Origin: Caldanaerobacter subterraneus
GTDB lineage: Bacteria; Bacillota; Thermoanaerobacteria; Thermoanaerobacterales; Thermoanaerobacteraceae
Reading direction: 5' to 3'
Assembly (NCBI RefSeq): GCF_004345675.1
Contig: NZ_SLWU01000017.1
Span: 1-63,592 of the forward strand
Length of the DNA stretch: 63,592 nt
In this document: piece after piece, positions 195 through 49,838 of the stretch
Numbering within the stretch: position 1 is the stretch's first letter
How the letters are laid out: every line of letters begins with the position of its first letter
The notes under the pieces: generated by a model
The model's input: the letters and a program-made list of their open reading frames with translations, nothing else
What the model was told of the DNA's origin: nothing
Database searches by the model: none
Program-made: the position numbers and the translations under genes

Positions 195-1502
195 TCAATT
201 TTCTGCTTTTGTATAATGCTTTTTTACTATATCCAATATACCCTTCTTTTCTAAAATTTCTACTGGAACCAAAAATGTAACTGTAACTACCCCTGGCAAT
301 CGCCCTATTTCAATTGAGCCTGTTATGGTAGCTCTGTTCAAAACTTCTGGTAAAGGCAATTCTAAAAATTTTGCAGCTCTTTCTAAACCATTGTTTACAG
401 CTTCATTCAAATTTGCTCCAGTACCTATGAAAGAAAGCGGATATGATTTCTCTAACGAATCGGCTCCCCACTGGTTTGCTAATTTCTTAGCTTTTTCAAG
501 CTCTTCTTCTGTAAAAGGACGAGCTAAATATGGCAAATCTTCAAAATTAGGTAACAATATTGGCCCCTCTATTTTCAAACCTTTTAATACTTTCACTCTA
601 AGTGTAACTATCCCAGCAACATCAGTAGTATGGCCTGCTATCTCTCCATCCCCCTGCATCGCGTGCATATCACCCATATACACTCCAGCACCTTTTACTT
701 TAACAGGGGCAATAACTACTGCTCCTTTTCTAACTCTATTTATATCCATATGTCCATCCGTTCTATGTCTTTCTAATTCTTCTTTAGTAATAGCATATTC
801 ATGTTCAGCGCCTATCAAAAATGTGCCAAAATCTCCTGCGTTATGAGAGTCCGGCATTTTTATAGAAGGCAATGTCCCTAACTGTCCTAAAAAAGGCCTC
901 ATTCGTGAGATTACTCCTACCAGATCATGAGGTGCCAAAGTAACTGCAGGATTTTGAGCAGAATTATGAGGTATCCTCATATATTCTCTTCCATTTGCTG
1001 CTATTTTTTCTGCAGCCTCTTTGCCTACAGTTACTCCAATATTTTCTTCTTTATCTAAGACCATAGTATAACCATGTTCAAATTTAAATGGAACTACATC
1101 TGCTCCACAATTAGCACAGCGTATAGAATCTGGCCCCACACCTTCTATAACAGTTTCTGGATATACTGTGCCACAGTTAGGACATTTAGCAGCTACAAAA
1201 GGATCGCTTATATATCTTCCTTCTATTACCTTTTCTTTACCTGAAGCTGTAGCAATTGATGTTACCTGAATATCTTCAATATATATTGCTACTACATCAC
1301 CAACTTCTGCATTTTCAACAAAAACCGGCCTAGTAACTTCATGCCCTCCTTTTAGCTTAGGGGTAAGCATTGGCCCCCAACACCCCGGCGCAGTATTAGC
1401 TATAATGTATCCTCCATCCTTTACTGCTTTTATCATTTCTTTTTCAGGATCAAGAATGCCATCGGTAAACTCATCCACATATACGACATTTCTCGCTTCC
1501 AT
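195..1502 (-). CDS. acetamidase/formamidase family protein with zinc-ribbon insertion
   Basis: The 435-residue protein belongs to the FmdA/AmdA family, cytoplasmic amidases that hydrolyse formamide or short amides to acid and ammonia. Family blocks seen include GGHEVTRPV near residue 53, the DMHAMQGDGE block and the C-terminal region. A four-cysteine module (C107, C110, C129, C132) looks like an inserted zinc ribbon. The ATG start has AAGGGG eight bases upstream. The gene is a single transcription unit with its own terminator, downstream of a PTS operon that also ends in a terminator. The true substrate cannot be told from the sequence. Confidence 0.85.
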   Translation of the reverse strand: MEARNVVYVDEFTDGILDPEKEMIKAVKDGGYIIANTAPGCWGPMLTPKLKGGHEVTRPVFVENAEVGDVVAIYIEDIQVTSIATASGKEKVIEGRYISDPFVAAKCPNCGTVYPETVIEGVGPDSIRCANCGADVVPFKFEHGYTMVLDKEENIGVTVGKEAAEKIAANGREYMRIPHNSAQNPAVTLAPHDLVGVISRMRPFLGQLGTLPSIKMPDSHNAGDFGTFLIGAEHEYAITKEELERHRTDGHMDINRVRKGAVVIAPVKVKGAGVYMGDMHAMQGDGEIAGHTTDVAGIVTLRVKVLKGLKIEGPILLPNFEDLPYLARPFTEEELEKAKKLANQWGADSLEKSYPLSFIGTGANLNEAVNNGLERAAKFLELPLPEVLNRATITGSIEIGRLPGVVTVTFLVPVEILEKKGILDIVKKHYTKAEN

Positions 1503-3210: not shown

Positions 3211-5328
3211 TCAACTTATTTGGTTGATCAATTCTACCACTTCTTCTTCGCTTTTTGCATCCATAATCTTTTTTAACAATTCATTATTCGCCAAAACTTC
3301 TACTAACTGTCGCAATGCTTCTAAATGCTGTGTATTATCTACAGCAGCAAATGAAACCACTATTTTAACTGGATCATTGTCCTTATTCCCAAAATTTATT
3401 GGGTTTTTTAATGTAATTAAACTCATACCTACTTTTTTTACACCAGCATTCGGCCTTGCATGTGGCATTGCCACACCAGGAGCAATAACTATATAAAGGC
3501 CCATATCTTTTACCGTCTCTATCATTGCCTCAATGTACCTAGACTCTACAACACCGCTTTTCTCTAGCAACTCACCTCCTATCCTTACAGCTTCTTCCCA
3601 ATCTTTTGCCTCAACATTTAGCTTTATGGTATCTTTTGTCAAAAGGTCCTTCAACACTGGATGAACAACTCCTCTCCTATTTTCATATGATGCTATGTTG
3701 AAAAAAATTAGTAAATCTTCTAGCAATTTTTCGCGATCTTTTATTACGCAATGCCTATTTATGATTTCCATAAGCTCGTCTACCACATCCAAGCGCTTAT
3801 CTTGAGGCTTAGCGAGGAATTTACTCAATTTTTCTATATCCCTATCCGTGAGAAGAGGATTGACCTCGACTACTTTTACTTCATCACATTTGAGCGGAAT
3901 AGTAGACACTATCAAGTCTATTTTTTTATCCTTTAAAACCTCTTTAATCTGGTGAAAAGCGATAGTGTCAATTATGTGTACATCAAAAACAGATTGCAAT
4001 CTGGAAGAAAGGAGTTTTGCTGTCCCTATTCCTGTGCTACATACAACTAATACATTGGGCTTAATAGAAATAGCGGTCTTTTTTCTTTCTATTGCTGCAC
4101 CAAAATGTATGACAAAATAACCTATTTCTTCTTCATTCAAGTTCCTGCCTGTGTACTCTTCAATAGGCTTTAAGCTCTCCCTAACTATTTCAAAAAGTTC
4201 TCTGTAATTAGTTTTAATTTCATCTAGAATGGGATTTTTTAATTTTAAATCGTGCTTCAAGCGGTATATCGTGGGTCTCAAATGATCTAGTAAACCTTCA
4301 AAAAGTTGCTGATCTTCTAAAAGGTTTTCTTTTATCCTTTCACTAACATTTCGTATGATTTTTTCTGTAAGAAGCTGATATTCAATCCAGTTTTCATTGA
4401 GGTAAGTTTTAGGCTTAGCTACATTGCTTCCTAATAAATGGATAGTGATGTATCCAATTTCATCTACAGGTATTGATACATTAAAGCGGTCTTCTAACAT
4501 CTTAGCTATATTTGATGCAACAGCGAATTCCTTAGTCATTTCTAAAGCTTTTAATTCCTCTTTTGGCATTACTATATCCTTGCCCAGTTGAATTCTCTTT
4601 ATTGCAATCGCTATGTGAATCACAAGTCCAGAAAAAGCCGCATCGGAAAAAATTGTCTCCAGCTCTCTTTCTGCTATCTGCACACATTGCTCTATATACG
4701 GTATGTCTATATCCTCAAAAAGCTTTGCAATCTGACCACTGCCGCCCAAACTTCGCCCATAGAAAGGTGCCTTTACAATATCCAATGCTTTGTCAATATC
4801 TATTGCTTCTGTAAGAAGTTCAATAGCAGCTCTTCTTAACTGCTTTTCATCTCCAACGACTTTTACACCGTATTTGGGTAAAGCTTTAAGGTAAAGCCCT
4901 CTTTCCTCTAACCATTCTTTTACTTTTTTTAAATCGCTTATGACTGTGCTTCTTGAAACCATAAGCTTTTCAGCTAAAGTGTTTATTGTGATGTAGTCTC
5001 TCTGTTGGATAAGCTCGCTTAATATTACATTTACTCTTTCTTTTTGGGATAAGTTGTAATAATAAGGAGAAAGAGTGTCTAAGAAGGATAAGGCTTTGTT
5101 TCTATGTTCTAATAGTTCAGAAAATTTCACGCCTACATTCGGTTTTCTAATTAATTGTGGCAAATTATTATACTTTAAAAACTCATCAATAGCATCGAGG
5201 TCATACCTTATAGTTCTAGAGCTTACATTGAATAATTTTGCAAGCTCAGAAATTTTTATTGGCTCGTTTGAATTGATAAGTTTCATCAAAATTTGTTTAC
5301 TTCTGTCATTGAGAGTGATAATTATCAC
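3211..5328 (-). CDS. BglG/MtlR-type PRD regulator with PTS IIB-like and IIA domains
   Basis: The 705-residue protein has an N-terminal HTH (about 5-60), a second Mga-like HTH (about 80-165), two PRD domains (about 190-400, with conserved His in GLVIHIAIA, YITIHLLG and YFVIHFGA), a IIB-like domain with VVCSTGIGT (about 425) and a fructose/mannitol-type IIA domain with MPHARPNAG (H623 as phospho-acceptor). Such proteins are transcription activators controlled by PTS phosphorylation. The best start is GTG; a GAGGTGA ribosome-site-like string overlaps it, so ATT or ATC codons 6-12 bases further in cannot be excluded. It probably controls its own PTS operon. Its IIA may also serve the transporter. 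Confidence 0.88.
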   Translation of the reverse strand: MIIITLNDRSKQILMKLINSNEPIKISELAKLFNVSSRTIRYDLDAIDEFLKYNNLPQLIRKPNVGVKFSELLEHRNKALSFLDTLSPYYYNLSQKERVNVILSELIQQRDYITINTLAEKLMVSRSTVISDLKKVKEWLEERGLYLKALPKYGVKVVGDEKQLRRAAIELLTEAIDIDKALDIVKAPFYGRSLGGSGQIAKLFEDIDIPYIEQCVQIAERELETIFSDAAFSGLVIHIAIAIKRIQLGKDIVMPKEELKALEMTKEFAVASNIAKMLEDRFNVSIPVDEIGYITIHLLGSNVAKPKTYLNENWIEYQLLTEKIIRNVSERIKENLLEDQQLFEGLLDHLRPTIYRLKHDLKLKNPILDEIKTNYRELFEIVRESLKPIEEYTGRNLNEEEIGYFVIHFGAAIERKKTAISIKPNVLVVCSTGIGTAKLLSSRLQSVFDVHIIDTIAFHQIKEVLKDKKIDLIVSTIPLKCDEVKVVEVNPLLTDRDIEKLSKFLAKPQDKRLDVVDELMEIINRHCVIKDREKLLEDLLIFFNIASYENRRGVVHPVLKDLLTKDTIKLNVEAKDWEEAVRIGGELLEKSGVVESRYIEAMIETVKDMGLYIVIAPGVAMPHARPNAGVKKVGMSLITLKNPINFGNKDNDPVKIVVSFAAVDNTQHLEALRQLVEVLANNELLKKIMDAKSEEEVVELINQIS

Positions 5329-8791: not shown

Positions 8792-8844
8792 GATGGTAAA
8801 AGTATAGCATAATTTTAAAAAAAATTGAATACTGTCTAGATGAA

Positions 8845-9037
8845 GATAGCGAGAGATTATCTTCCATAAATGGAAGATAGCCGAAGGGGAAATACAAAGG
8901 CCCGCCAAGCCTTTGTAGAAGCTCTCAGGCGGCAGGATCGCTATCGGATAGGCCTCTGGAAAGTCTCGTAAAGAGCACCGAAGGAGCAATACATATGGAA
9001 GGCCATATGTAGAAGCTTTCAGGTAGAAAAACAGAGG
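8845..9037 (+). ncRNA. tandem glycine riboswitch (gcvT element)
   Basis: Two aptamers lie in series. Aptamer I (8845-8945) is closed by GATAGCG/CGCTATC and contains GCCGAAGGGG and CTCTCAGGC. Aptamer II (8953-9037) is closed by CCTCTG/CAGAGG and contains CACCGAAGGAGC and CTTTCAGGT. This matches the cooperative glycine riboswitch known to precede gcv operons. The 3' strand of the second P1 (CAGAGG) is also the 5' strand of the downstream terminator. Glycine binding should therefore block termination and switch the operon on. Confidence 0.95.
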
Positions 9038-9094: not shown

Positions 9095-9112
9095 ATGAAA
9101 GGGTGTGATAGT

Positions 9113-36840: not shown

Positions 36841-36866
36841 AGAGAGGGTAACCCCCTCTCTTTTTA
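36838..36866. terminator. terminator between convergent ltaE and sbcC
   Basis: The stem AGAGAGGG/CCCTCTCT is followed by TTTTT on the plus strand and by A/T-rich sequence on the other. It overlaps the sbcC stop codon. Confidence 0.75.
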
Positions 36867-39800
36867 AGTATACTCTATCCTCACTTTGCTTCCCTCTCCT
36901 GAAACGGTAGGAGGCGTCACTATGAGCTTGACAGGGACCCTGTCTTTGAGTTCTTCTACATGGCTTATTATGCCAACTACCATCTTATCTTTTTTCAGCC
37001 TTTCCAGTGATGTCATAACTACGTCAAGAAGTTCTGAATCAAGGCTTCCAAATCCCTCATCCAGGAAGAAAAATTCTAAAGGTGCTTTTCCTTTTAACTG
37101 TATGTGGGAAGAAAGAGCTAAAGCAAGTGATAAAGAAGTCAAAAAAGTCTCTCCACCAGATAAAGTATCAACAGAACGCCTTACACCGCCATTGAAGTCA
37201 TCCCTCATTACAAAATTATTTTCAGAATCAATCTCTAGTGCGTACCTGCTTCTGCTTATTTCTTTAAGCCTTTTTGAAGCGGAAAAAGTAATGTATTTGA
37301 GCTGTTTTGATGCGATGAAATCCACAAATTTATTGCCTTGGAACAATTTATCCAGTTCTTCCAGCATGTCTATTACGTGTTCTAACTCTTTTTTCTTTTT
37401 GGTCAACTCTTCTACCTTCTTCAGGTTTTCCTTCATATCATGAATAGCCTTTTCTGTAGCACCAATTTCTTTTCTTTTGCCCGTCAAAATCTCCTCCAAC
37501 TCTCTAATCCTTTCCTCTAATCTGTTCCAATGCTCCTCTTCAATTTGCCTTCCCTTAAGAAACCCTTCCAATCTTTCTATATTCGCGACAAGAGAAGTGT
37601 ATTCATTTTCAAATCTTTTTACTTCTATTTCAATTTCACTCATCTCTTCACTGCTAATCACAAAACTTAAAGCCTCTTCCTTTGTCTTAAAGCCCTCTTT
37701 CGACAGCGAAAGTTCCAATTTTTCTATTTGCTCCTTCAACATGTTGGTCAATAAAATTTGATTTTCCAAAGTGGAGACTTTTTTGCTTTCTATTTCCTGC
37801 TTTTTTCTCCTCTCCTCTTCCAGCCTATTTTTTAAAAAGCTCTCTCTCTGCAGAATTTCCGCTCTTTCCTTTTGAACATCTTCCAAATACTTTTTTACGT
37901 CTTTCCCTTCAGAATACGAATAGAGTTCTTTTTGCATCTTCTCTAAAACGCTTCTTTTTTCCTTCCCTACTTCTACTACCTGCGTCTTCCTCACTATCAA
38001 CTGGTTGAGGTCTTCTAACACTTTTTCTCTTTTAATGTTTAATTCTTCTAAATTCTTTTTTAAGGACTCTACTTCTTCTCTTAGTTTTTCAATCAATTTT
38101 TCTTTCTGATTGATTTCCTCTACTTTTTCTGAAAAGTTCGCATACCCCAACTTTTCTTTCCAATTTTCTAATTCTTTCAATAGACTCTGATATTCCCTTT
38201 CAATCCCTTCAAAAGAAAGTTTATACTCCTCAAGAAGCTTTAAATCCTTTTGCAATCTCTCTTTTATGCGAGCTTCTTCCAATGCAAGCTGTCCTTTTTC
38301 TTCTTTTAATCTCTTAAGGACTTTCTCCTTTTCCTCCTTTTCTTTCGCCCAGTCCTCCAATTTTTCCTTTTCTTCTTTAAATTTTACCTCCATCTCTTCT
38401 ATCTCTTTTCTCAAAATTTCTAAATCAATGCCCCTTAAATTTTCTTTCGCTTTTTCAAGCTCAGCCCTTGAAATCTCTTCTTTTGCTGTAAATCCTGAGA
38501 GCTGACTTTTTAGCATAATGAGCTTTTCTTGTAAAACTTCTCTTTCAGTTCTTAAACCCCTTTCTAGCTTCTTTTTCTCCTCAATCAACTTCTCGTCCAC
38601 TTTCTTTGCCAGATTTATGTGGTGAAAAGACCCGCATACGGGGCAAGGCATTCCCTCTTCCAGGCCTTCTGCCAATTCTCCCGCCATGTTCTTCCTGACA
38701 ATCTCTTCAATCTCTTTCTGCAAAGCATCCAGCGCTTTACCTTTTTCTTCATATTCTCTCTCAGTTTCTTCTAACTCACCTACAAGCTTTTCTCTCTCCT
38801 CTAAAACCTCTTTTAAAGTCTTCTCCAGCTTTTCTTCTAATTCTTTATTCCTTTGCGCTTCTATAAGCTTTAACCTCTTTGACTCCAGTTCTTTTTGGAA
38901 ATTGAAGAGCTCTTCACTTGAAAGAGGCTTTTGGACTTCAAGAAGGTTGAAAATACTTTCCTCTTTTTGTAACTCTTCCTCTTTTTCAGTAAGTTCCACC
39001 TTTATCCTCTCGTACTCTCCCTTCTGCTTTTCTACAAGTTTTTCTATCTCTTCGATCTTGTAAGCCTTTTCCTCTCTTTCTCTTTTGACCCTTTCAAACT
39101 CTTTCTCAAGCTCAAACGCTTTAAATACATTCTCCTTCTCTTCTGTACTAATCCTTATGCTTACAATCTTCTCTTCTTTTTCTGCGATATTCTTCTTCAA
39201 GTTTTCTATAGAAAGAAATAATTTTTCCTTTTCTTCTTCTAACCTTTTAATATTGCTTTCTAAGTTTTTATACTCTGTCAAAAGCTTTTCTCTTTCTTCA
39301 GATAGCCTTTTTATCTCATCTTCAATCTGAACAGCCCTTTTGAGCCTTTCTTCTTTCTCAATAAGAAGAGGAATTTTCTCTTCTTTTTCCCTAAAAGTTA
39401 TTTCGTAATCTTTCTCTATCTTTTCAAGTTGCGCACTCACTTCCTCCAACTCTTTAGCGTGTTTTTCTAGTTCTTTCTTGTTCAATAAAAGCTTTTTTTC
39501 TGTCTCCTCTACAGAATCTATATATGGCTTTACAGAAAGGGCTTTTCTTGCCTTCTCAATTTTCCCTCTTTTTACCTCTATTTCAGAGGCTTTTTCATCT
39601 AACAATCTCTTTTTCTCTAAAAACTGGTTTAACTCCTTTTGCCTTTCCCATATCTCTTTCAATTTTTCTCTCTCTTTTAAAAGCTCTTCTCTTTCTGCGC
39701 TCAAATTTTTTTCTTCTTCTTTAAGAAGTTCTAACTTGGCTAGCGCTTCTTTTAAAGCCTCTTCTGTAACACCCTCATAGCGAGAAAGCTCCCCATTTAC

Positions 39801-40397
39801 CATCCCCAGAAGGAGAGCTTTTTCATTTTTGACTTTCCTCACTTTTTCCATTAAATCATTTCCATATCTTTCTAAGCCAAAAATCCTCTCCAGCATATCC
39901 CGCCTTTCTCGTCCACTTAATTTCAAAAATTCGCTAAATTTCCCCTGAGGAAGTACTACAGATCTGGTAAAGTCCTCTGCAGTAAGTCCTATTATTTCTA
40001 CTATTTTCTGATGAACCTCTCTTTCTTTCTCTGCCAGCACTTTTTCTCCTTCTGCGGTTATCTCTCTTAGCCTTGCCAAAGTAGTCTTGTATCCGCCATT
40101 TTTTAAATCTTTTTTTATGTTTCTCTCTACTATGTACCTCCTTCTTTCAGTCCCTACTCCTATTTCAAATTCATATACCACAGAAGTGGAAAGGGAGTCA
40201 GTGTTTATAAAGTCTTTGCTGTTTCTGGGAATTTTTCCGTACATCGAAAGGGTGATAGCATCTATTATGGTGGATTTCCCGCTTCCCGTCGGGCCAAATA
40301 TTCCAAAAAGCCCTTTTTCAGTGAGAAGTTCAAAATTTATGACTTGCTCTTCTGTAAAGCTGTTAAGGCCAGAAATTTTAAGTCTAATAGGCTTCAT
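36864..40397 (-). CDS. sbcC: exonuclease subunit SbcC (SMC-like ATPase)
   Basis: The 1177-residue protein has split ABC ATPase halves at its ends (Walker A FGPTGSGKST near residue 35; LSGGETFLTSLSLALA and Walker B FFFLDEGFGSLDS near the C-terminus) separated by a very long Glu/Lys-rich coiled coil. The zinc hook CPVCGSF lies near residue 585. With SbcD it opens and trims hairpin and blocked DNA ends. The ATG overlaps the sbcD stop as ATGA. Last gene of addB-addA-sbcD-sbcC. Confidence 0.95.
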   Translation of the reverse strand: MKPIRLKISGLNSFTEEQVINFELLTEKGLFGIFGPTGSGKSTIIDAITLSMYGKIPRNSKDFINTDSLSTSVVYEFEIGVGTERRRYIVERNIKKDLKNGGYKTTLARLREITAEGEKVLAEKEREVHQKIVEIIGLTAEDFTRSVVLPQGKFSEFLKLSGRERRDMLERIFGLERYGNDLMEKVRKVKNEKALLLGMVNGELSRYEGVTEEALKEALAKLELLKEEEKNLSAEREELLKEREKLKEIWERQKELNQFLEKKRLLDEKASEIEVKRGKIEKARKALSVKPYIDSVEETEKKLLLNKKELEKHAKELEEVSAQLEKIEKDYEITFREKEEKIPLLIEKEERLKRAVQIEDEIKRLSEEREKLLTEYKNLESNIKRLEEEKEKLFLSIENLKKNIAEKEEKIVSIRISTEEKENVFKAFELEKEFERVKREREEKAYKIEEIEKLVEKQKGEYERIKVELTEKEEELQKEESIFNLLEVQKPLSSEELFNFQKELESKRLKLIEAQRNKELEEKLEKTLKEVLEEREKLVGELEETEREYEEKGKALDALQKEIEEIVRKNMAGELAEGLEEGMPCPVCGSFHHINLAKKVDEKLIEEKKKLERGLRTEREVLQEKLIMLKSQLSGFTAKEEISRAELEKAKENLRGIDLEILRKEIEEMEVKFKEEKEKLEDWAKEKEEKEKVLKRLKEEKGQLALEEARIKERLQKDLKLLEEYKLSFEGIEREYQSLLKELENWKEKLGYANFSEKVEEINQKEKLIEKLREEVESLKKNLEELNIKREKVLEDLNQLIVRKTQVVEVGKEKRSVLEKMQKELYSYSEGKDVKKYLEDVQKERAEILQRESFLKNRLEEERRKKQEIESKKVSTLENQILLTNMLKEQIEKLELSLSKEGFKTKEEALSFVISSEEMSEIEIEVKRFENEYTSLVANIERLEGFLKGRQIEEEHWNRLEERIRELEEILTGKRKEIGATEKAIHDMKENLKKVEELTKKKKELEHVIDMLEELDKLFQGNKFVDFIASKQLKYITFSASKRLKEISRSRYALEIDSENNFVMRDDFNGGVRRSVDTLSGGETFLTSLSLALALSSHIQLKGKAPLEFFFLDEGFGSLDSELLDVVMTSLERLKKDKMVVGIISHVEELKDRVPVKLIVTPPTVSGEGSKVRIEYT

Positions 40398-41596
40398 GCT
40401 CCCTCATCCTCTTTCCCAATTATGCTCATAAAAAGTTCCACCATCTCTTCTGAAGGAGGAACTTTCTTCTCTTTTAGGTAAAACTCCTGAAACAGCTCTC
40501 TTATGTCTTTATCCTCTACCTCGATTTCTTCAAAGACATCCTCTTCTTCCGGAAGGATTGGCCTTATCTCTACTATATCAGGCATAAGCCTTTTCATTTC
40601 CCTTATCTGAGAGGAAGGAAGAGGAGATTCTGTTTTTATTTCAAAATAAGCCCACACATCCTTGTCCTTATACTCTTCACAAATTTTTAGAGCTTCATCT
40701 ATCCCATCGCACCTGAAAACCTCAATGGGCTTATAATTTTTAAAGTAAATTTCTTTTACGTAAGCTTTCTCTCCCGCTTTTAAATCCACCAGATATGCGC
40801 ATTTTGATTGATTCATCTCGCTCTTGCTGTACTGAAGAGGAGAACCTGAATAGTACACAGGCAGTACATCAGAAACCCTTTGAGGCTTGTGAAGGTGCCC
40901 CAAAGCAATGTACTGAGCCTTTTCGGGAAGATGCCTTAACTCCACAGTAAAACTTCCTCCAAGCTGAATAGGCCTTTCTGAGCCTGCTTCCTCTCCCCCT
41001 GCCACAAAAATGTGCGAAACAGCTATGTTTATAGTATCTTCCCTGTAATTTTTTGAAAGCTCTTCAAAAAGCCTGCCGACTCTTTCAGAATAGCTCTTCT
41101 GCCTCTCTTCCTCCTCCAGGCTTTCAGAAAAAATCTCATTAAGCCTTTTCTCGCTGGGGTAGGGAAGGGCTATCACAACAGCCCTTTCCCCTTTTATCTC
41201 TACCTCAAAAAAGCCTTCCCCTGAATTGTGAATCTTAAACCTGCCAAAGTCTCCTGTTGGCACAATAGTTTTAGTAGACCCCAAAAGTATTACTCCCTGT
41301 TCATAGGCAAGAGGGCTTGCGGCAGAAAGCCTTTCCGGGTTATCGTGATTGCCTGCAATTGCCAAAATAACTCTTTCTCCATTGGCGAGTCTTTTTAAAG
41401 TATTGTAAAACAGCATTTCTGCCTTTGCAGGAGGGTTTGAAGAGTCATAGACATCTCCAGCTATTATCACCAAATCCACGTCATTCTCTTCAGCTATTTT
41501 TACAAAATCATCTAAAAATTTTTCTTGTTCGGCAAGCCTTGAAAAATTTTCGAGAGTTTTCCCTAAATGCCAATCTGAAGTGTGTAAAATCCGCAT
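40394..41596 (-). CDS. sbcD: exonuclease subunit SbcD (Mre11-like nuclease)
   Basis: The 400-residue metallophosphoesterase shows all nuclease motifs in order: ILHTSDWHLGK (residues 3-13), IAGDVYDSSNPP (about 45), IAGNHDNPERLSA (about 80), VSHIFVAGG (about 195) and ALGHLHKPQ (about 230). It is the Mn-dependent nuclease partner of SbcC. Eleven bases separate it from addA. The C-terminal capping domain (about 280-400) is present, so it is full length. Confidence 0.95.
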   Translation of the reverse strand: MRILHTSDWHLGKTLENFSRLAEQEKFLDDFVKIAEENDVDLVIIAGDVYDSSNPPAKAEMLFYNTLKRLANGERVILAIAGNHDNPERLSAASPLAYEQGVILLGSTKTIVPTGDFGRFKIHNSGEGFFEVEIKGERAVVIALPYPSEKRLNEIFSESLEEEERQKSYSERVGRLFEELSKNYREDTINIAVSHIFVAGGEEAGSERPIQLGGSFTVELRHLPEKAQYIALGHLHKPQRVSDVLPVYYSGSPLQYSKSEMNQSKCAYLVDLKAGEKAYVKEIYFKNYKPIEVFRCDGIDEALKICEEYKDKDVWAYFEIKTESPLPSSQIREMKRLMPDIVEIRPILPEEEDVFEEIEVEDKDIRELFQEFYLKEKKVPPSEEMVELFMSIIGKEDEGA

Positions 41597-41606
41597 TTTA
41601 TCACCC

Positions 41607-44600
41607 TTAGTACTTTATGATAGTATCATTAAAAAAGAGGTAGATGTACTTCTCTTTTACCTTCTTTCCCGTGATTTCTTCTAAAGCCTTTCCATAGAGG
41701 TCTATCTGAACTCTGTATTTATCCCTGATTTCTTCGATCTTCCCATTTTCAACATAATCTGTCTTATAGTCTATTAAAACTAGCTCTCCTTCTTCTTCAA
41801 AAAAGCAGTCAATAATTCCCTGTACAGCTATAAATTCTTCTTGATACACTTCAGGCAAATCTCTATAAATTTCTCTGCTACTAATCTTTATGTGAAAAGG
41901 CACTTCCCTTCTTACTTCCTTTGCCTTAAGTAACCTTTTCCCCAGTGGAGTTTTAAAAAATCTTTCTATTTTATTTGCATCCACTTCTTTTGCCTGCTCT
42001 TCTGTCAGAATTTCATTTTTCACCATATCCTTAATCTGTTCTTTTATCCCCCGGTAAGACAAATCCTTTGAAAGGTCAAGCTTTTGCATGACAAGGTGCA
42101 TGGCTATTCCCCTTTCAGCAGGAGTCAGTCCCCTTTTCTTCTCCAAAAAGAGGGGGGTTTTTAAAACTCTTCTCTCAAAAATAGAAGTAGTCTCCTCATC
42201 AATCACTTCATCATTTAGAATCCTCTTGATTTCCGTAACAGAGAGCTTGGCAGGAAGCTTGCTCGACCTATCATAAGGATAAACGTAGTTAAGCCTTTCT
42301 TCAACCTCTTTTCTGAACTCTGTGTGTAAACCTTCTAAATTGAGAGCATTTAATCTCTCCAAGACTTCTATTCCTTCATCTTTTTTCCTTTCAACAATAA
42401 CATCTCTTTTGTTCCAAATTTTCACTTCCCATTTTGAAGAGTCTTGTTCCAATTCTGGAGAAATTTCTGCAAATTCCCTCAAAAGCTTAAGATCCCTATG
42501 CCTGATTAAGGCAGAACCTATCCAGTCTATATAGCTTCTGCTCTTTAATACATCGTACTCAGAAATCTTTTTCCCCAGAAGTTTTGCTTTGCCCCATTTT
42601 TTTGCTCTTTCTTTTATGTCTTTTACGCTTGCCACCAGAATGAGCTTTTCTTTTGCCCGTGTTAAAGCTACATACAGAACTCTCATCTCTTCAGAAAGGC
42701 TTTCTAGCTTTATTTTATATTTTATGGCTTCTTTTACAATGCTGGGATATGAAAGCCTTCTTCTATAATCCACAAATTCGGGCCCAATGCCTAGAAAATG
42801 ATGATAGAGAATTTTTTCGTTCAAATCCTTCGTATTAAACTGCTTTCCCAACCCAGCCACTATCACAATAGGAAATTCCAAGCCTTTGCTTTTGTGTATG
42901 CTCATTACCCTCACTACATTCTCATTTTCCCCAACTGTCTTAGCACTTCCCATATCTGTACTCGTCGTCTTTAAGCGGTTTATAAAATTGACAAAGTTAA
43001 AAAGCCCTTTGAAACTCGTCTCCTCGTACTCTTTAGCCCTTTCAAAAAGCACCCTCAAATTAGCCTGCCTCTCTACTCCTTGGGGCATCGCCCCGACATA
43101 GGAGTAAAAACCCGTCTCTTCGTACAAGTACCACAAAAACTCATCCACAGGCATGTAAATTGATTTTTCCTGCCACCTTTTTAATGAATCCAAAAAATTT
43201 CTCACCTTTTCTCCCAGTTCATCTTCTCTCAAAGAAGCTTTTTTTAAGGCTTCATATATAGTTCCGTCAGCATCTTCCAATCTTATATCGACAAGTTCTT
43301 CCTCGGTGAAAGAAAATATCGGAGACCTCAGTACTGCCAGAAGAGGTATGTCCTGCATTGGATTGTCTATCACCTGCAGAAGGGAAAGCATTGTCTTTAT
43401 TTCCGCAGTATCAAAGTAGCCGGCATTAGTATCTGCGAAAACAGGAATTCCCATCTTTACAAATTCCTCTTCGAAAGCATAAGCCCATTTTTCAGTAGCT
43501 CTTAAAAGCACGCAAATGTCTCTATATTCAACAGGCCTGTACCCCCCAATTTCTTTGTCATACACTTTAAATCCTTCTCTAAAAAGACCTTTTATCCTCT
43601 CCCCAACAACATGGGCTTCCACCTGCATATCGTCCAAAATTTCTTCATCTTCTTCAAATTCCTCTTCTCTTTCTCTCTCTATCAAGTGAACTTCTACAGT
43701 CCTTTCATTTTCCTTTTCAAAAGGATTACTTTCATAATTTGCCCCATAATTTAATTTTTCTTCCTCTGAGTAGTCTACTTCGCCTATGTTTTTTGACATT
43801 ATCTTTTCAAATATGTAATTTACTGCGTCTATAATCTCTTTCCTGCTTCTAAAATTTTTATAAAGGAGTATTTTCTTATTTTCCCCTTCTTGAGAATAAC
43901 TTGTGTATTTCTCAAAAAATATATAAGGATTGGCCTGCCTAAATCTGTATATGCTCTGCTTCACATCTCCCACCATAAACCTGTTCGGTGGATTGTCCCT
44001 AGCAATCAAACTCAGTATAGCCTCCTGTATCAGGCTTGAATCTTGGTATTCATCTATGAATATTTCTTCAAACTTTTCTCTGTAGTAAGAAACTACTTCT
44101 TCATTACTCAAAATCTTTAGAGCAAAATGTTCTATGTCCTCAAAGTCTATCACACCTTTTTCCTTTTTCTTTTCTCCGTACTTTTTATCAAACATCAAAA
44201 TCAAATCTGCCAAAGCTTTCATGACAGGATACAATTTCTTTATCTCTCTTTTAATCTCTTCTTCTTCATCTATAAAAAATTTATCTCTTATTTCCCTTAT
44301 CCGCTTTTTTACGTCCTCTCTCAATTTCCTGACTTCTTCCTTTACTTCTGCATCAGCTTCCTTGCTAGCTTTAGGAAGTCTCTCAAAAGAGATGGCCTCT
44401 ATTTTTTTCTTGAATTCATTCCAGCTTTTTGAATCAATTAACTCTTTTAAATGATGTGCCTCCGATTGAAAAAGCGAGAGATAGCCCTCTAATCCCCTTT
44501 CCTCTCTTAACTTCTCAATCGCGACACTCATCCCATTTAAAAGCCCTAAAATTTCTACTTTTATGCTGTCTAGTATCACTTCCGCCCATTTGGAATCTTC

Positions 44601-45221
44601 AAAAGAGAAGTCTTCTTTCACCTCGAAAGCCTCAAGCACATCATTCAGCCACTTCTCAGGCCATGGCAAGGACCTTATGAATCCATAGAGCTTCAAAAGT
44701 ACATCCTGAAGATATTGGTCCCCCTTTGTCCCGCCATAGCTCTCCACCAGAAGGAGAAAGCCCTCATCATTTTTCTCGTACAGCTCCTCAAAAAGCTCCT
44801 CCATCGCCTCCAGCTTTAAAAGCAATGTCTCTGTATCATCTCCTACCCTGAAACTAGGGTCCAAGTCCAGCAAAAAGAAATGCTTTCTCACTACATCTAA
44901 GCAAAAAGAGTGGATTGTCGTAATAGTAGCTTTATTAAGGAGTGTAAGCTGGTCAGCAAGCCTTTTGTCCTCCGGATGCTGGTCAAGGAGGGAAATTAAC
45001 CTTTCTGCAATTCTTTCTCTCATCTCAGAAGCAGCTGCATTGGTAAAAGTGACGACCAGCAATCTATCTATGTCTACAGGTTTTTCTGGGTCTGTCACAA
45101 TATTTATAATCCTCTCTACTAACACTGCTGTTTTCCCTGAACCGGCAGCCGCTGCCACCAAAACATTTTTACCCCTCGTTGTTATCGCTTCCCTCTGTTC
45201 TTCCGTCCACTTGACTTCCAT
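41607..45221 (-). CDS. addA: ATP-dependent helicase/nuclease subunit AddA
   Basis: The 1204-residue UvrD-type helicase with a C-terminal RecB-like nuclease works with AddB in double-strand-break resection. Seen are Walker [17 protein letters not shown] near residue 28, helicase motif [24 protein letters not shown] (motif V), [10 protein letters not shown] (motif VI) and the nuclease core GIIDCFF plus LIDYKTDYV near residue 1150. The gene starts inside the end of addB with a 53-base overlap, in another frame. Confidence 0.95.
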
Positions 45222-48200
45222 CTTCTTTCACTTCCTCTTCAAAAATACTCCACAGTTTTTCTTCTTTGCTTTCTATTCTCCTGTAGTCATTGCCCTTAAA
45301 ATTGGTCTCAAATTTGCATATAGAAGAGTAAGGGCAGTACTGGCAGGCCGTCTCCTTTTCTTTCTTGTAAGGCAAAATGGAAATATCCCCTTGGAGCATT
45401 TCCTCAGCGAGCTTTCTGCTCTTTTTCTTTACAAATTTTCTTAAAATCTCAAATTGCTCTTCTGTCAGTCCTTTTGTGTTTTTGCCGATAGTCCCATCCT
45501 TATTGATAGAAGCAGGGATTATATAGGAAGTCCCTTCTATCAATTTATCCATCTCCCTTATTATATCTAAGTTTTTAAGCACAAATCCTTCTAACCGCAG
45601 CCTTTTCATTATTTCCTTATACAATTCCTCATCAGAAATATCTTTGTCTGCCCTCACAATAGGATCGTCTATTTTGAAGTAGAATATCCCCGCAGGAGAT
45701 AAGTTTGCCTTCCCTTCAAAAGCGCTCTCCAAAATGGCATCTAAGTACACAAGAAGCTGAAGTTCAAGTCCATAAAGTACATCTGAAAGGTCAAGAGTTT
45801 TGTCTCCCGATTTATAGTCTATTATCCTTACATATGTTTCTCCTTCTTTTTCAAGGACGTCCACTCTGTCAATTCTGCCTATCAGCTTTATTTCTTCTCC
45901 GTTTGAAAGCACGATTTTTATAGGAGGATATTTTTGATTTTCACCAAAAGCCACTTCATGACCTAAAGGCACAAAAGAGCTCCTCTTCATGTGTTCAGAA
46001 ATTATCCATACAGCCTTGGACAGCACCCTCTTTAGTCTGTTTGCGAGGTATCTGTATCGAGAACTGCTCTTTAGGATGTAGCCCGGAATTTTGTCTACCA
46101 TCTCTTCTACAATTATGTCAACTGCATCATTACACCACTCTTTATCAATCTCCTGCCAGGTAAGCTCCTCCTTTTCTAAAGCCTTGGCAATTTCATTGAG
46201 GACATTATGCATGAAAATTCCAAGGTCAGGAGGCTCAAAACCGTAAATTTTTCTCTCTTTAGCCTTAAGCCCGTACTGCACAAAATAGGCAAAAGGACAG
46301 GCAGCATACTTCTCAAGCCTTGATACACTAAACTCCATTTCTTCTCCGTAAAGCTTTTTTATCTTTAAAGGAGGTATTCTTTTTATCTGATTGTCATAGA
46401 CAAAACCTTCTAAAGTATCTTCTAATTTTTTCTTCCACTCATCTTTTGTCCTATACCATTTATAGACCTCCAGCCAAATAGGGTGAATTTTGCCTGTAAT
46501 ATTCCATTTTTTGAAAGATTTAATCATCTCATTAAAAGTGGGCAAAGGCACTGTCACCCGGTTTAGATTTTCTTCGTCTGTGTCCATTTCCACGATATTT
46601 GTACTAACCTTTATCTTAGGAAATATCCTTCTTAAGCGAGAAATTATTATAGAAGGCCTTAGGCTCCTCCCTTCGTGGTCTGCAATTGGATAGCTTATTT
46701 TAAGAAACTCGCTGGCGGAAGTTAAAGCTGTGTACACTAGAAATTGTTCTTCAAATACCTTTGCCTTTGTATCTCTGTCAAGCTCAAGGTCCAAAGATGA
46801 AAGCAAATTTCTCTCTTCGTCTGAAAATATGCCTTCTTCAAAGGAGGAGGCTGGAAATACCCCGTCATTTGCTCCAAGAAGGTAAAGAACTTTGCTGTTG
46901 TGACTTTTCATCCTGTCCACACTTGTGACCAAGACTTCGTCTAATGCAGGTGGAATGCTTGCAATCTGGTACTCATCAAAACCTATGGATATAAGCCGTG
47001 CAAATTGCTCTAAAGAAATTTTTTCTTCTCCCAGCACTTCTACCATTTGGTCCAACACGTCCACCACTATGTCCCAAATTTGAGCGTATTGATTTGCTGT
47101 GTCAAATTCTCCCCTGTTTTTAAACTCTTCAATAAACTTTTCTATCTTCTCAGGCAATTTATTCTCAACCAAAAAATCATAAAGGACTTCGCAGGCTTCT
47201 TTTACATTTTTTGAATGAGAAAATCTTGTGTAAAACTTCTCTAAAGGCAAATACACTCTTTCCCTTACTTCATTTACTTTATTTATAATCTGTTTTTCCC
47301 TCTCCTCCATCAAAAGGCTGTCAGTTTTATAGTCTATTCTGTACTCCCATCTTTCTTTCCATTTATTCCCTTTTATTCCGTTTGCCAAAACGTAGTTTTC
47401 CAAAAGATTTATTTCCTCTTTGTCTATTCCCGTAAAACCTGTCTTGAGGTATCTAAAAACCGATTCATAAGACCAATTTTTTAGATATATTTCAAAAATA
47501 GAAATCACATATACTATGATGGGATTGTTAGTTATGTTTATCTTCAAATCGATAAAGTGAGGAATACCATAATGGGAAAATATAGCTTTTACAAGCTTAT
47601 AATATCTTTTTAGGTCCCTTGTGGCAACCACAATGTCAGAGTATCTCATGTGTTCATCTCTTATCAATCTAGCTATATCGCGAGCTACCTCTTCTACCTC
47701 GCTGTACATATTTGTAGCTTTAAAAATGCTTATATTTTTTGTCTCTTCATTGTAAATTTCGTAAGGATGTGAAAAGAAATTTTTCTCCAAAAAAGCAAGC
47801 TCTTTATTATGTTCAAATCTTTTGGGTATTCCTTTGTTCAAATTAACAGGCTCCTCAACTGAAATGCCATTGGTTTCACATATTTTAATTAGTCTTTCTT
47901 CTGTTTTTTTTGTAGTGTAAAAAAGGTGGGTAGGATCAATTGAATCTATTGAAGGGTCTAATGTCAAGGTCACACTCACCCTTGTAACTTTCTTTAAAAG
48001 CTTTTCTATCACCTTATATTGCTTTGGAGTAAAACCGGTAAAGCCATCTATCCAAAACTCTGCTCCTTCAAACTGCAAAGACTTCTCCAGTTTTTTAGAT
48101 AAAAGGTCTAACTCATCTTCTTCGTCTATGTAGTTTTTGTGCAATACCTCTTCAAAAGAAGAATATATGAGGACTAAGTCCTCAAGTTTTTCCTTTAATC

Positions 48201-48648
48201 CCAATTTCTCTATTTTTTCGCTAGCGTCAATTAACTGAAAAGGTGTGACATCAAATCTCTTGAATTCAGTTATGGCCTCAGAAATTTTTTTAACAAATCC
48301 TTGCTGTCTAGAAGCCTTGGAATATACTTTGAGTTTTTCCTTGTTTTCTTCCAAGACTTTGTATATTACCATAGACTTTCCACAGGCCTTCATATGCTGA
48401 CGGGCAAGCCCCCCTACTTCTACAAAGACCCTGTTTGCCAGGGTTTTAAAGCTTAAAACCTGTGCCCTCATCTTCTCATCGCGTTCAATCATATCAAGAA
48501 GGTACTTCTCCGCCTCAAATGTAAATTGTTCTGGGACAAGAAGGATAAGAGGATGGTCAGCACCGTCATTTAATTTATGTTTTATTTCTTCAAGACAGAA
48601 ATAGGTTTTGCCACTTCCTGCCCTTCCGTATATAAACCTTATGCTCAT
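45169..48648 (-). CDS. addB: ATP-dependent helicase/nuclease subunit AddB
   Basis: The 1159-residue AddB has an N-terminal Walker [11 protein letters not shown] (residues 9-18), an inactive-helicase middle and a C-terminal nuclease domain ([19 protein letters not shown] near residue 930). Four cysteines fit the family's iron-sulfur staple: one in YAACPFAYF near residue 785 and three in [11 protein letters not shown] near the C-terminus. TAGGAGC precedes the ATG. It is the first gene of the operon; an attenuator-like hairpin lies in its leader. Confidence 0.94.
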
Positions 48649-48668
48649 AAAATCAGCTCCTAAGTTTT

Positions 48669-48713
48669 CTATATTACAATAAAAAGCAAGGCAAAACCTT
48701 GCTTATCTTCCAT
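48669..48713 (-). CDS. possible 14-residue leader peptide of the addB operon
   Basis: An ATG with AGGTG eight bases upstream opens a frame of 14 codons (MEDKQGFALLFIVI) that runs through the terminator-like hairpin and ends just before the addB ribosome site. Its placement is like that of attenuator leader peptides. There is no run of regulatory codons, so the control signal is unclear. Confidence 0.35.
   Translation of the reverse strand: MEDKQGFALLFIVI
48678..48704 (-). terminator. attenuator-like terminator in the addB leader
   Basis: On the minus strand AAGCAAGG, loop TTTTG and CCTTGCTT are followed by TTTATT. It lies between the predicted addB promoter and the addB start, with no upstream gene to terminate. 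The plus strand has no matching T-run. Confidence 0.65.
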
Positions 48714-48745
48714 TCTCACAACACCTGCACTTTCTTCTAAATATA

Positions 48746-48754
48746 ATTATACCA
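48746..48754 (-). promoter_or_regulatory. extended -10 promoter of the addB operon
   Basis: TG, one base and TATAAT on the minus strand predict a transcription start near 48739. The leader would be about 90 bases and include the hairpin and the 14-codon frame. Confidence 0.55.
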
Positions 48755-48768
48755 TCATTTTCTCCATG

Positions 48769-48798
48769 TTGAATTATTTTATTTTTTTGTGATACAAT
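48769..48798 (+). promoter_or_regulatory. promoter of the exchanger-like gene
   Basis: TTGAAT and TACAAT are spaced by 18 bases, with an extended TG in front of the -10. It is divergent from the addB promoter. Confidence 0.5.
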
Positions 48799-48842
48799 AT
48801 TCCACTGAGAAAACAAAACAGCCTGTACAAAGGAGTGTAGAA

Positions 48843-49838
48843 ATGATACAGGACGTTATAATGCTGATTTTAAGCCTTGCATTCATACTCATCTCCTGCA
48901 TTTTTTTCACCAACTCGGTAGAGTGGTTGGGAAAAAAACTAAACCTCAATCAAGGAGTAGTGGGAAGTATCTTGGCGGTTGTTGGGACTGCCTTTCCAGA
49001 GACAATTATACCTATCATTGCTATTATCTTTTATAGTGGAAAAGAAGCAAGTCAAATTGCCACAGGAGCGATTTTAGGCGCACCTTTTATGCTTTCAACA
49101 CTGGGATTTTTGATGACGGGAGCTTCGGTAATACTGTATTCATCTGCAAATAAAAGAAGTATTAAAATGAACGCAGACCCTAATGTCTTCAGAAGAGACC
49201 TTGAATATTTTATATTGATTTACACACTAGCTATATTTACCTCCGTGTTCAACCAGTTCAATGAAGTGAGACTCGCATCAGTTTTACTTTTATTAACCCT
49301 GTATTTCCTTTACGTAAGAGCTACATTCAATAGCGAAGGAAAAATAGAACAAAATGTAGAAGAACTCTTGTTTTCACGGATTTTTAGCCTCCCTCCTACA
49401 TTATCTTGGATAATAATTCAACTATTTATTTCTCTTTCTGGCATAATTTTCAGTTCTCATTTGTTTGTAGGGTATGTTAAGGACCTTTCTCATTTAATGG
49501 GAGTATCTCCACTCATACTTTCTCTTGTAATAACACCTATTGCAACAGAACTGCCTGAAAAATTTAATTCAATAGTATGGGTAGGGCAAAAAAAAGATAC
49601 TCTTGCGCTTGGAAACATAACGGGTGCAATGGTGTTTCAGTCTTCTATACCAGTTATTATGGGGATTTTGTTTACCCCATGGAATATAACAGGAATAGCT
49701 TTTTTAAGTGTAGCTCTGGCATTGACTTCTGCTACTTTAAATTTAATATGGATAAACATGAAAAAATCAGTAAATCCTTTTATACTCATGTCCGGAGGAA
49801 TACTGTACGGAATATTTTTATTTACTGTAATTCATTAA
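48843..49838 (+). CDS. sodium/calcium exchanger-like membrane protein
   Basis: The 331-residue integral membrane protein has about ten hydrophobic helices arranged as two repeats. Each repeat has a conserved cation-exchanger (CaCA-like) signature: VVGTAFPETIIPIIAI near residue 40 and VITPIATELPEKFNS near residue 225. The buried acidic residue in each repeat fits cation coordination. AAAGGAG is eight bases before ATG 48843; the longer frame to 48789 lacks a site. Ion specificity is not clear. It is followed at once by a decayed DUF1646 transporter. Confidence 0.8.
   Translation: MIQDVIMLILSLAFILISCIFFTNSVEWLGKKLNLNQGVVGSILAVVGTAFPETIIPIIAIIFYSGKEASQIATGAILGAPFMLSTLGFLMTGASVILYSSANKRSIKMNADPNVFRRDLEYFILIYTLAIFTSVFNQFNEVRLASVLLLLTLYFLYVRATFNSEGKIEQNVEELLFSRIFSLPPTLSWIIIQLFISLSGIIFSSHLFVGYVKDLSHLMGVSPLILSLVITPIATELPEKFNSIVWVGQKKDTLALGNITGAMVFQSSIPVIMGILFTPWNITGIAFLSVALALTSATLNLIWINMKKSVNPFILMSGGILYGIFLFTVIH

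Follow-up and report, generated by a model that had tools for sequence, protein, structure and literature searches.

A terminator-like hairpin between promoter and addB as a candidate leaky remnant in the leader of a break-repair operon

The leader of an addB-addA-sbcD-sbcC repair operon carries, between a predicted promoter and addB, a terminator-like hairpin with no same-strand gene to stop. It lies in the window analysed here, that is, the whole stretch of 63,592 nucleotides, part of a 2.58-Mb assembly. The element is read, at about an even chance, as a lineage-specific orphan intrinsic terminator, probably debris of a rearrangement, acting as a leaky brake independent of translation. Sequence comparison makes a leaky remnant most likely, rather than a new control system, because the mini-peptide readable from the leader is no better than chance and neither element occurs in nine related species. 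The hairpin adds no new mechanism and fits the known orphan 5' terminators, a common kind, 15,930 of which are reported as predicted in 302 genomes (Naville and Gautheret 2010, PMC2965389). As described in that survey, these are weaker than 3' terminators; the addB hairpin resembles them in this weakness, in its position in a 5' leader and in having no upstream gene to stop. The main text of the survey does not name addB.

The repair operon that the earlier note had placed downstream of the hairpin is borne out: Pfam supports all four genes, and NCBIfam additionally AddB and SbcD (Table 1). The same gene order is found in B. subtilis, where it is described as a putative operon (PMC1533848). 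The closest AddB relatives in the named collection belong to Thermoanaerobacter species and a Clostridia MAG. If the first ATG of addA is used, the addB and addA frames overlap by 53 bases (window 45169-45221, minus strand). For the divergent exchanger-family gene, ATG 48843 is the likelier start.

Table 1. Features of the window, and arrangements upstream of addB in other genomes of the genus (G, genome; L, locus)
Feature	Position or genome	Strand	Basis or remark
addB	45169..48648	-	TIGR02773, 1685.5 bits
addA	41607..45221	-	UvrD helicase and PD-(D/E)XK domains
sbcD	40394..41596	-	subfamily model TIGR00619 over its cut-off; equivalog NF041754 below
sbcC	36864..40397	-	AAA_23 and SbcC_Walker_B
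Divergent Na/Ca exchanger-family gene	48789..49838	+	PF01699; ORF from first start codon
Extended -10 promoter element TGGTATAAT	48746..48754	-	sequence; no good -35
Weak SD-like AGGTG of leader ORF	48722..48726	-	8 nt ahead of ATG 48713
Leader ORF MEDKQGFALLFIVI, 14 codons	48669..48713	-	ATG at 48713; peptide read by eye; chance 16-37%
Terminator-like hairpin AAGCAAGG-TTTTG-CCTTGCTT	48684..48704	-	8 perfect pairs, 9 counting G-T pair
Short T-run TTTATTGT behind stem	48676..48683	-	sequence; TTTATT directly 3' of hairpin
addB ribosome site AGGAG	48657..48661	-	sequence; duplex of surroundings -10.1 kcal/mol
Exchanger directly upstream of addB	G003, G004, G006, G010
Inserted UPF0236-family ORF directly upstream of addB	G002/L005 (T. 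wiegelii) 3509-4834	-	weak ISL3-transposase match
Broken antitoxin-like gene between exchanger and addB	G007/L010 about 1160-1445		same DNA as part of L002
Exchanger reduced to its ends	G008/L004
FAA hydrolase directly upstream of addB	G009/L006

Toward addB, the leader presents in order the promoter element, AGGTG, ATG 48713, the hairpin with TTTATT, the addB ribosome site and the addB ATG 48648. The physical description given in the earlier note holds. The extended -10 element is present and is one of eight TGNTATAAT sites in the window, and the perfect eight-pair hairpin with its T-run is on the addB strand. The nearest same-strand stop codon is 1833 nt upstream of the hairpin, the adjacent upstream gene being divergent; termination of an upstream same-strand gene was consequently rejected, none lying within 1.8 kb. 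Between the hairpin and addB, the minus strand has no promoter-like site among those listed by the promoter scan. In sequence, a G+C-containing stem followed by a T-run, albeit a short one, corresponds to an intrinsic terminator; in position, between a predicted promoter and a gene and with nothing upstream on the same strand to terminate, it corresponds to an orphan 5' terminator.

The hairpin is beyond chance. A stem of at least 8 pairs with at least 4 G-C pairs and a T tail arises at a frequency of 0.0004 when the 194-nt intergenic stretch is dinucleotide-shuffled, and of 0.0008 in shuffles of the 96-nt leader. The folding energy of the whole leader is ordinary relative to shuffles (z = -0.56). 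Among the 15 intergenic terminator-like hairpins of the window, 14 lie within 67 nt behind a same-strand stop codon, and the addB leader hairpin is the sole exception. Twelve of these 14, counted as hairpin-strand pairs with three palindromic sites taken on both strands, start 0-5 nt past a stop codon or overlap one. Premature termination at the leader hairpin is thus plausible, given a hairpin well above chance and no same-strand gene to stop, and this part of the attenuator proposed in the earlier note stands; the leader-peptide part is unsupported.

The predicted strength of the stem sets a limit on what it may do. At 37 °C the stem has -10.9 kcal/mol; this weakens to -4.9 at 65 °C and -3.9 at 70 °C, although the stem is still predicted to be paired at 65-70 °C. 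The 3' hairpins of the window mostly range from -5.6 to -9.6 kcal/mol at 65 °C, with two at -1.2 and -2.2, so the leader stem is weaker than most of them. The growth range of Thermoanaerobacter species is roughly 55-75 °C, and at -4.9 kcal/mol read-through may therefore be large or complete; with a stem marginal at 65-70 °C, the hairpin may fail to terminate at all. Such an inert relic, a left-over hairpin with neither a terminating nor a regulatory role at 60-70 °C, is rather unlikely. The weak stem, the short T-run and the absence of the hairpin from nine congeners agree with it; against it, the presumably working 3' hairpins of the window exceed the leader stem only modestly in stability at 65 °C. 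With no gene to terminate, a leader stem might also affect mRNA stability or translation initiation instead of termination. This is considered improbable, as 35 nt separate the stem from the addB ATG and it is outside the ribosome site, is followed by a T-run and is not conserved.

If the hairpin acts as an orphan terminator, RNA polymerase would start near 48739, the predicted start, and reach the hairpin after about 35-55 nt. A fraction of the polymerases would terminate near 48677-48683, whatever the state of translation. The outcome would be an RNA some 60 nt long and addB-addA-sbcD-sbcC mRNA kept at a constantly lower level. The leader revealed no sensing part. A non-chance hairpin, its standing as the sole exception of 15 and the perfect extended -10 upstream all speak for an orphan terminator, as do its absence from the congeners, the homology of the following stretch to two of their leaders, the differing upstream arrangements and the weakness itself. 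Against this reading stand the marginal stem at growth temperature, the start site being a predicted one, and the debris origin being an inferred one.

Two other functions would use the same landmarks. A span of about 60 nt is bounded by promoter and terminator, as it would be in a gene for a small RNA that ends at the hairpin, with incidental read-through into addB; this is given very little credence, since an Rfam match above chance was not found and there is no conservation in the family. In the leader stretch, no Rfam family matches at gathering score, and the best permissive matches fall far under gathering scores. Least probable of all is an operator bound by a protein on DNA: a 21-bp palindrome does lie downstream of the promoter, but the genome has no other such site within 2 mismatches, a LexA-like palindrome was not seen by eye, and a T tail fits RNA.

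The earlier note had gone further and proposed attenuation coupled to translation of a 14-codon leader ORF with a well-spaced ribosome site running through the hairpin. The ORF and its AGGTG, 8 nt before the ATG, are indeed present; neither is above chance. In shuffles of the 40 nt preceding the stem, a start whose SD duplex is at least as good occurs in 16% of cases (ATG) or 37% (ATG, GTG and TTG). No frame has a stop codon within the hairpin region, and every start upstream of it consequently reads through. The duplex of AGGTG with the anti-SD reaches -6.4 kcal/mol, versus -10.1 for the surroundings of the addB ribosome site. The leader ORF and its ribosome site are therefore compatible with chance, and no run of regulatory codons was found in the ORF. 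With the left arm masked, the alternative fold has -7.0 kcal/mol, and 66% of shuffles do as well or better; no antiterminator or competing structure above chance was found in the leader, and this candidate was dropped.

A translation-coupled attenuator with a leader peptide is accordingly very improbable. The spacing of the AGGTG is suitable and the stem begins 9 nt past the start codon, so that an initiating ribosome would cover the left arm. Against this stand a chance-level ORF in a region open in every frame, the lack of antiterminator and regulatory codons, the absence from all nine congeners, and terminators that sit directly behind stop codons. The last arrangement is a published proxy for polymerase outrunning ribosomes (reviewed in PMC7858274), and it suggests that transcription is uncoupled from translation in the window; in the relatives' loci L002-L006, just 2 of 11 hairpins are close behind a predicted stop and the proxy is unconfirmed there. 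Leader-peptide control was thus rejected on chance level, open frames, SD and non-conservation. A variant is still more improbable, namely an attenuator gated by translation initiation and recently born in one Thermoanaerobacter lineage only, in which a ribosome at the leader start covers the left arm and prevents termination. If true, the break-repair operon would go up with active initiation and down when initiation is inhibited. The element is weak evidence that break repair is under translation-coupled control.

In pyrBI-type attenuation of E. coli, the leader ORF extends into the terminator hairpin. The addB leader ORF likewise overlaps its hairpin; unlike in pyrBI, it is a chance-level frame of 14 codons, and coupling is doubtful. 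For B. subtilis vmlR, pausing and both transcription and translation attenuation are reported (PMC9226507). Both are Firmicute leaders with premature termination, which for addB is only a prediction, whereas the addB leader differs from the vmlR report in having no alternative structure above chance. No attenuator of addAB or of a repair operon and no Thermoanaerobacter transcript map was recognised in the literature searched.

AddB is encoded in all nine other genomes of the genus, with 71-76% identity across the N-terminal 400 residues. In G009, the first addB frame (L006 4992-6149; G009:C9) is open for only about 385-398 codons, likely a frameshift or an assembly error. Conservation of both leader elements in relatives, the absence of which the earlier note had named beforehand as refuting its proposal, was not found: the hairpin and the leader ORF are each missing from the addB leaders of all nine congeners and of G001. 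Since AddB is only 71-76% identical to that of the congeners, this absence does not exclude a function inside the source species. Congener leaders are short and follow a conserved promoter core, AATAATGTGGTAACAT (TGTGCTAACAT in G007, TGTGGTGACAT in G008). The sequence that follows the hairpin shows homology to the addB leaders of G007 and G005 (p = 0.002 each) and not to the six others tested, and the promoter aligns weakly to the congeners' core (p 0.02-0.26 over eight congeners). On these alignments, an extra ~60-70 nt appears to have entered the addB leader of the source lineage.

Hairpins of similar sequence, AAGCAGGG...CCTTGCTT or CCCTGCTT, occur in congeners G002, G003, G004, G005, G008 and G010. 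In all five contexts examined (G002, G004, G005, G008 and G010), they are upstream of a different gene, which we take to be a dehydrogenase-like ORF, judging by its N-terminus; being upstream of another gene, they are regarded as look-alikes and not as counterparts. On a wider scale, the AddB search gave matches in 11 of 24 genomes of the order, 12 of 36 of the class and 106 of 169 of the phylum, 77 of the last over the cut-off. The phylum upstreams come from 70 of the 76 non-own genomes over the cut-off and from G036, six genomes with matches split in two and 29 below the cut-off being left out; with 11 family genomes, 82 upstreams were compared. A terminator-like hairpin is present in 16 of the 71 other addB upstreams of the phylum, each with a co-directional ORF before or around it, which is why they are taken for ordinary 3' terminators. 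This reading is less certain in G041 and G075, where the listed ORF stops >200 nt ahead of the hairpin.

The stretch upstream of addB has been rearranged repeatedly across the genus (Table 1, lower rows), and that of G005 ends like that of G009. Most likely, the hairpin is what remained after an insertion and loss of DNA in this rearrangement-prone stretch, and it is most simply taken as debris of a rearrangement upstream of addB. One proposal of the survey of orphan terminators is that inserted elements, once decayed, may supply terminators for exaptation as attenuators, termed "mobile attenuators" (PMC2965389). The addB hairpin resembles these in possibly deriving from decayed inserted DNA, and differs in having no second copy in the genome: none is found within 2 mismatches, which led to the rejection of a dispersed repeat or transposon end, and the leader stretch has no second match below E = 0.2 in its own genome. 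Searches of the own genome and the family did not find a source sequence for the hairpin. One candidate is the antitoxin-like gene that is broken in G007 and intact in relatives from genus g3, with a ParE-like gene behind it in some loci. The leader stretch aligns to the G007 stub with a score of 45 (p = 0.01 against shuffles). An equally high score is reached by 1-15% of 88 other gene 5' ends, depending on the cut, the best-scoring of which belong to unrelated genes, and the own genome has no match to the G007 insertion. A direct origin from the antitoxin stub is only suggested by this alignment.

If the hairpin terminates, the leader would be a clean case of an operon gaining a crude brake from a stray terminator landing in its leader, one of the ways in which attenuators have been suggested to arise. 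The consequence for DNA repair would then be only a lower level of AddAB and SbcCD, without regulation.

Further observations were made alongside. The loci of four congeners share a hairpin, CTCATCTTAAAGGTGAG with TTTTTCCACC, ahead of addB (minus strand; L002 3432-3448, L003 3702-3718, L004 4582-4598, L005 1939-1955). In genus g3 of the same family (G011-G019), there is no close AddB, and five of the nine genomes have only weak AddB matches (E 3e-4 to 3e-8) in frames of ~1040-1070 codons, from which a diverged AddB or a RexB type may stand in for AddB. Elsewhere in the window, tandem glycine riboswitch aptamers (Rfam RF00504, 60.3 and 45.3 bits) are found at 8840-9037 on the plus strand, before an ORF at 9095.
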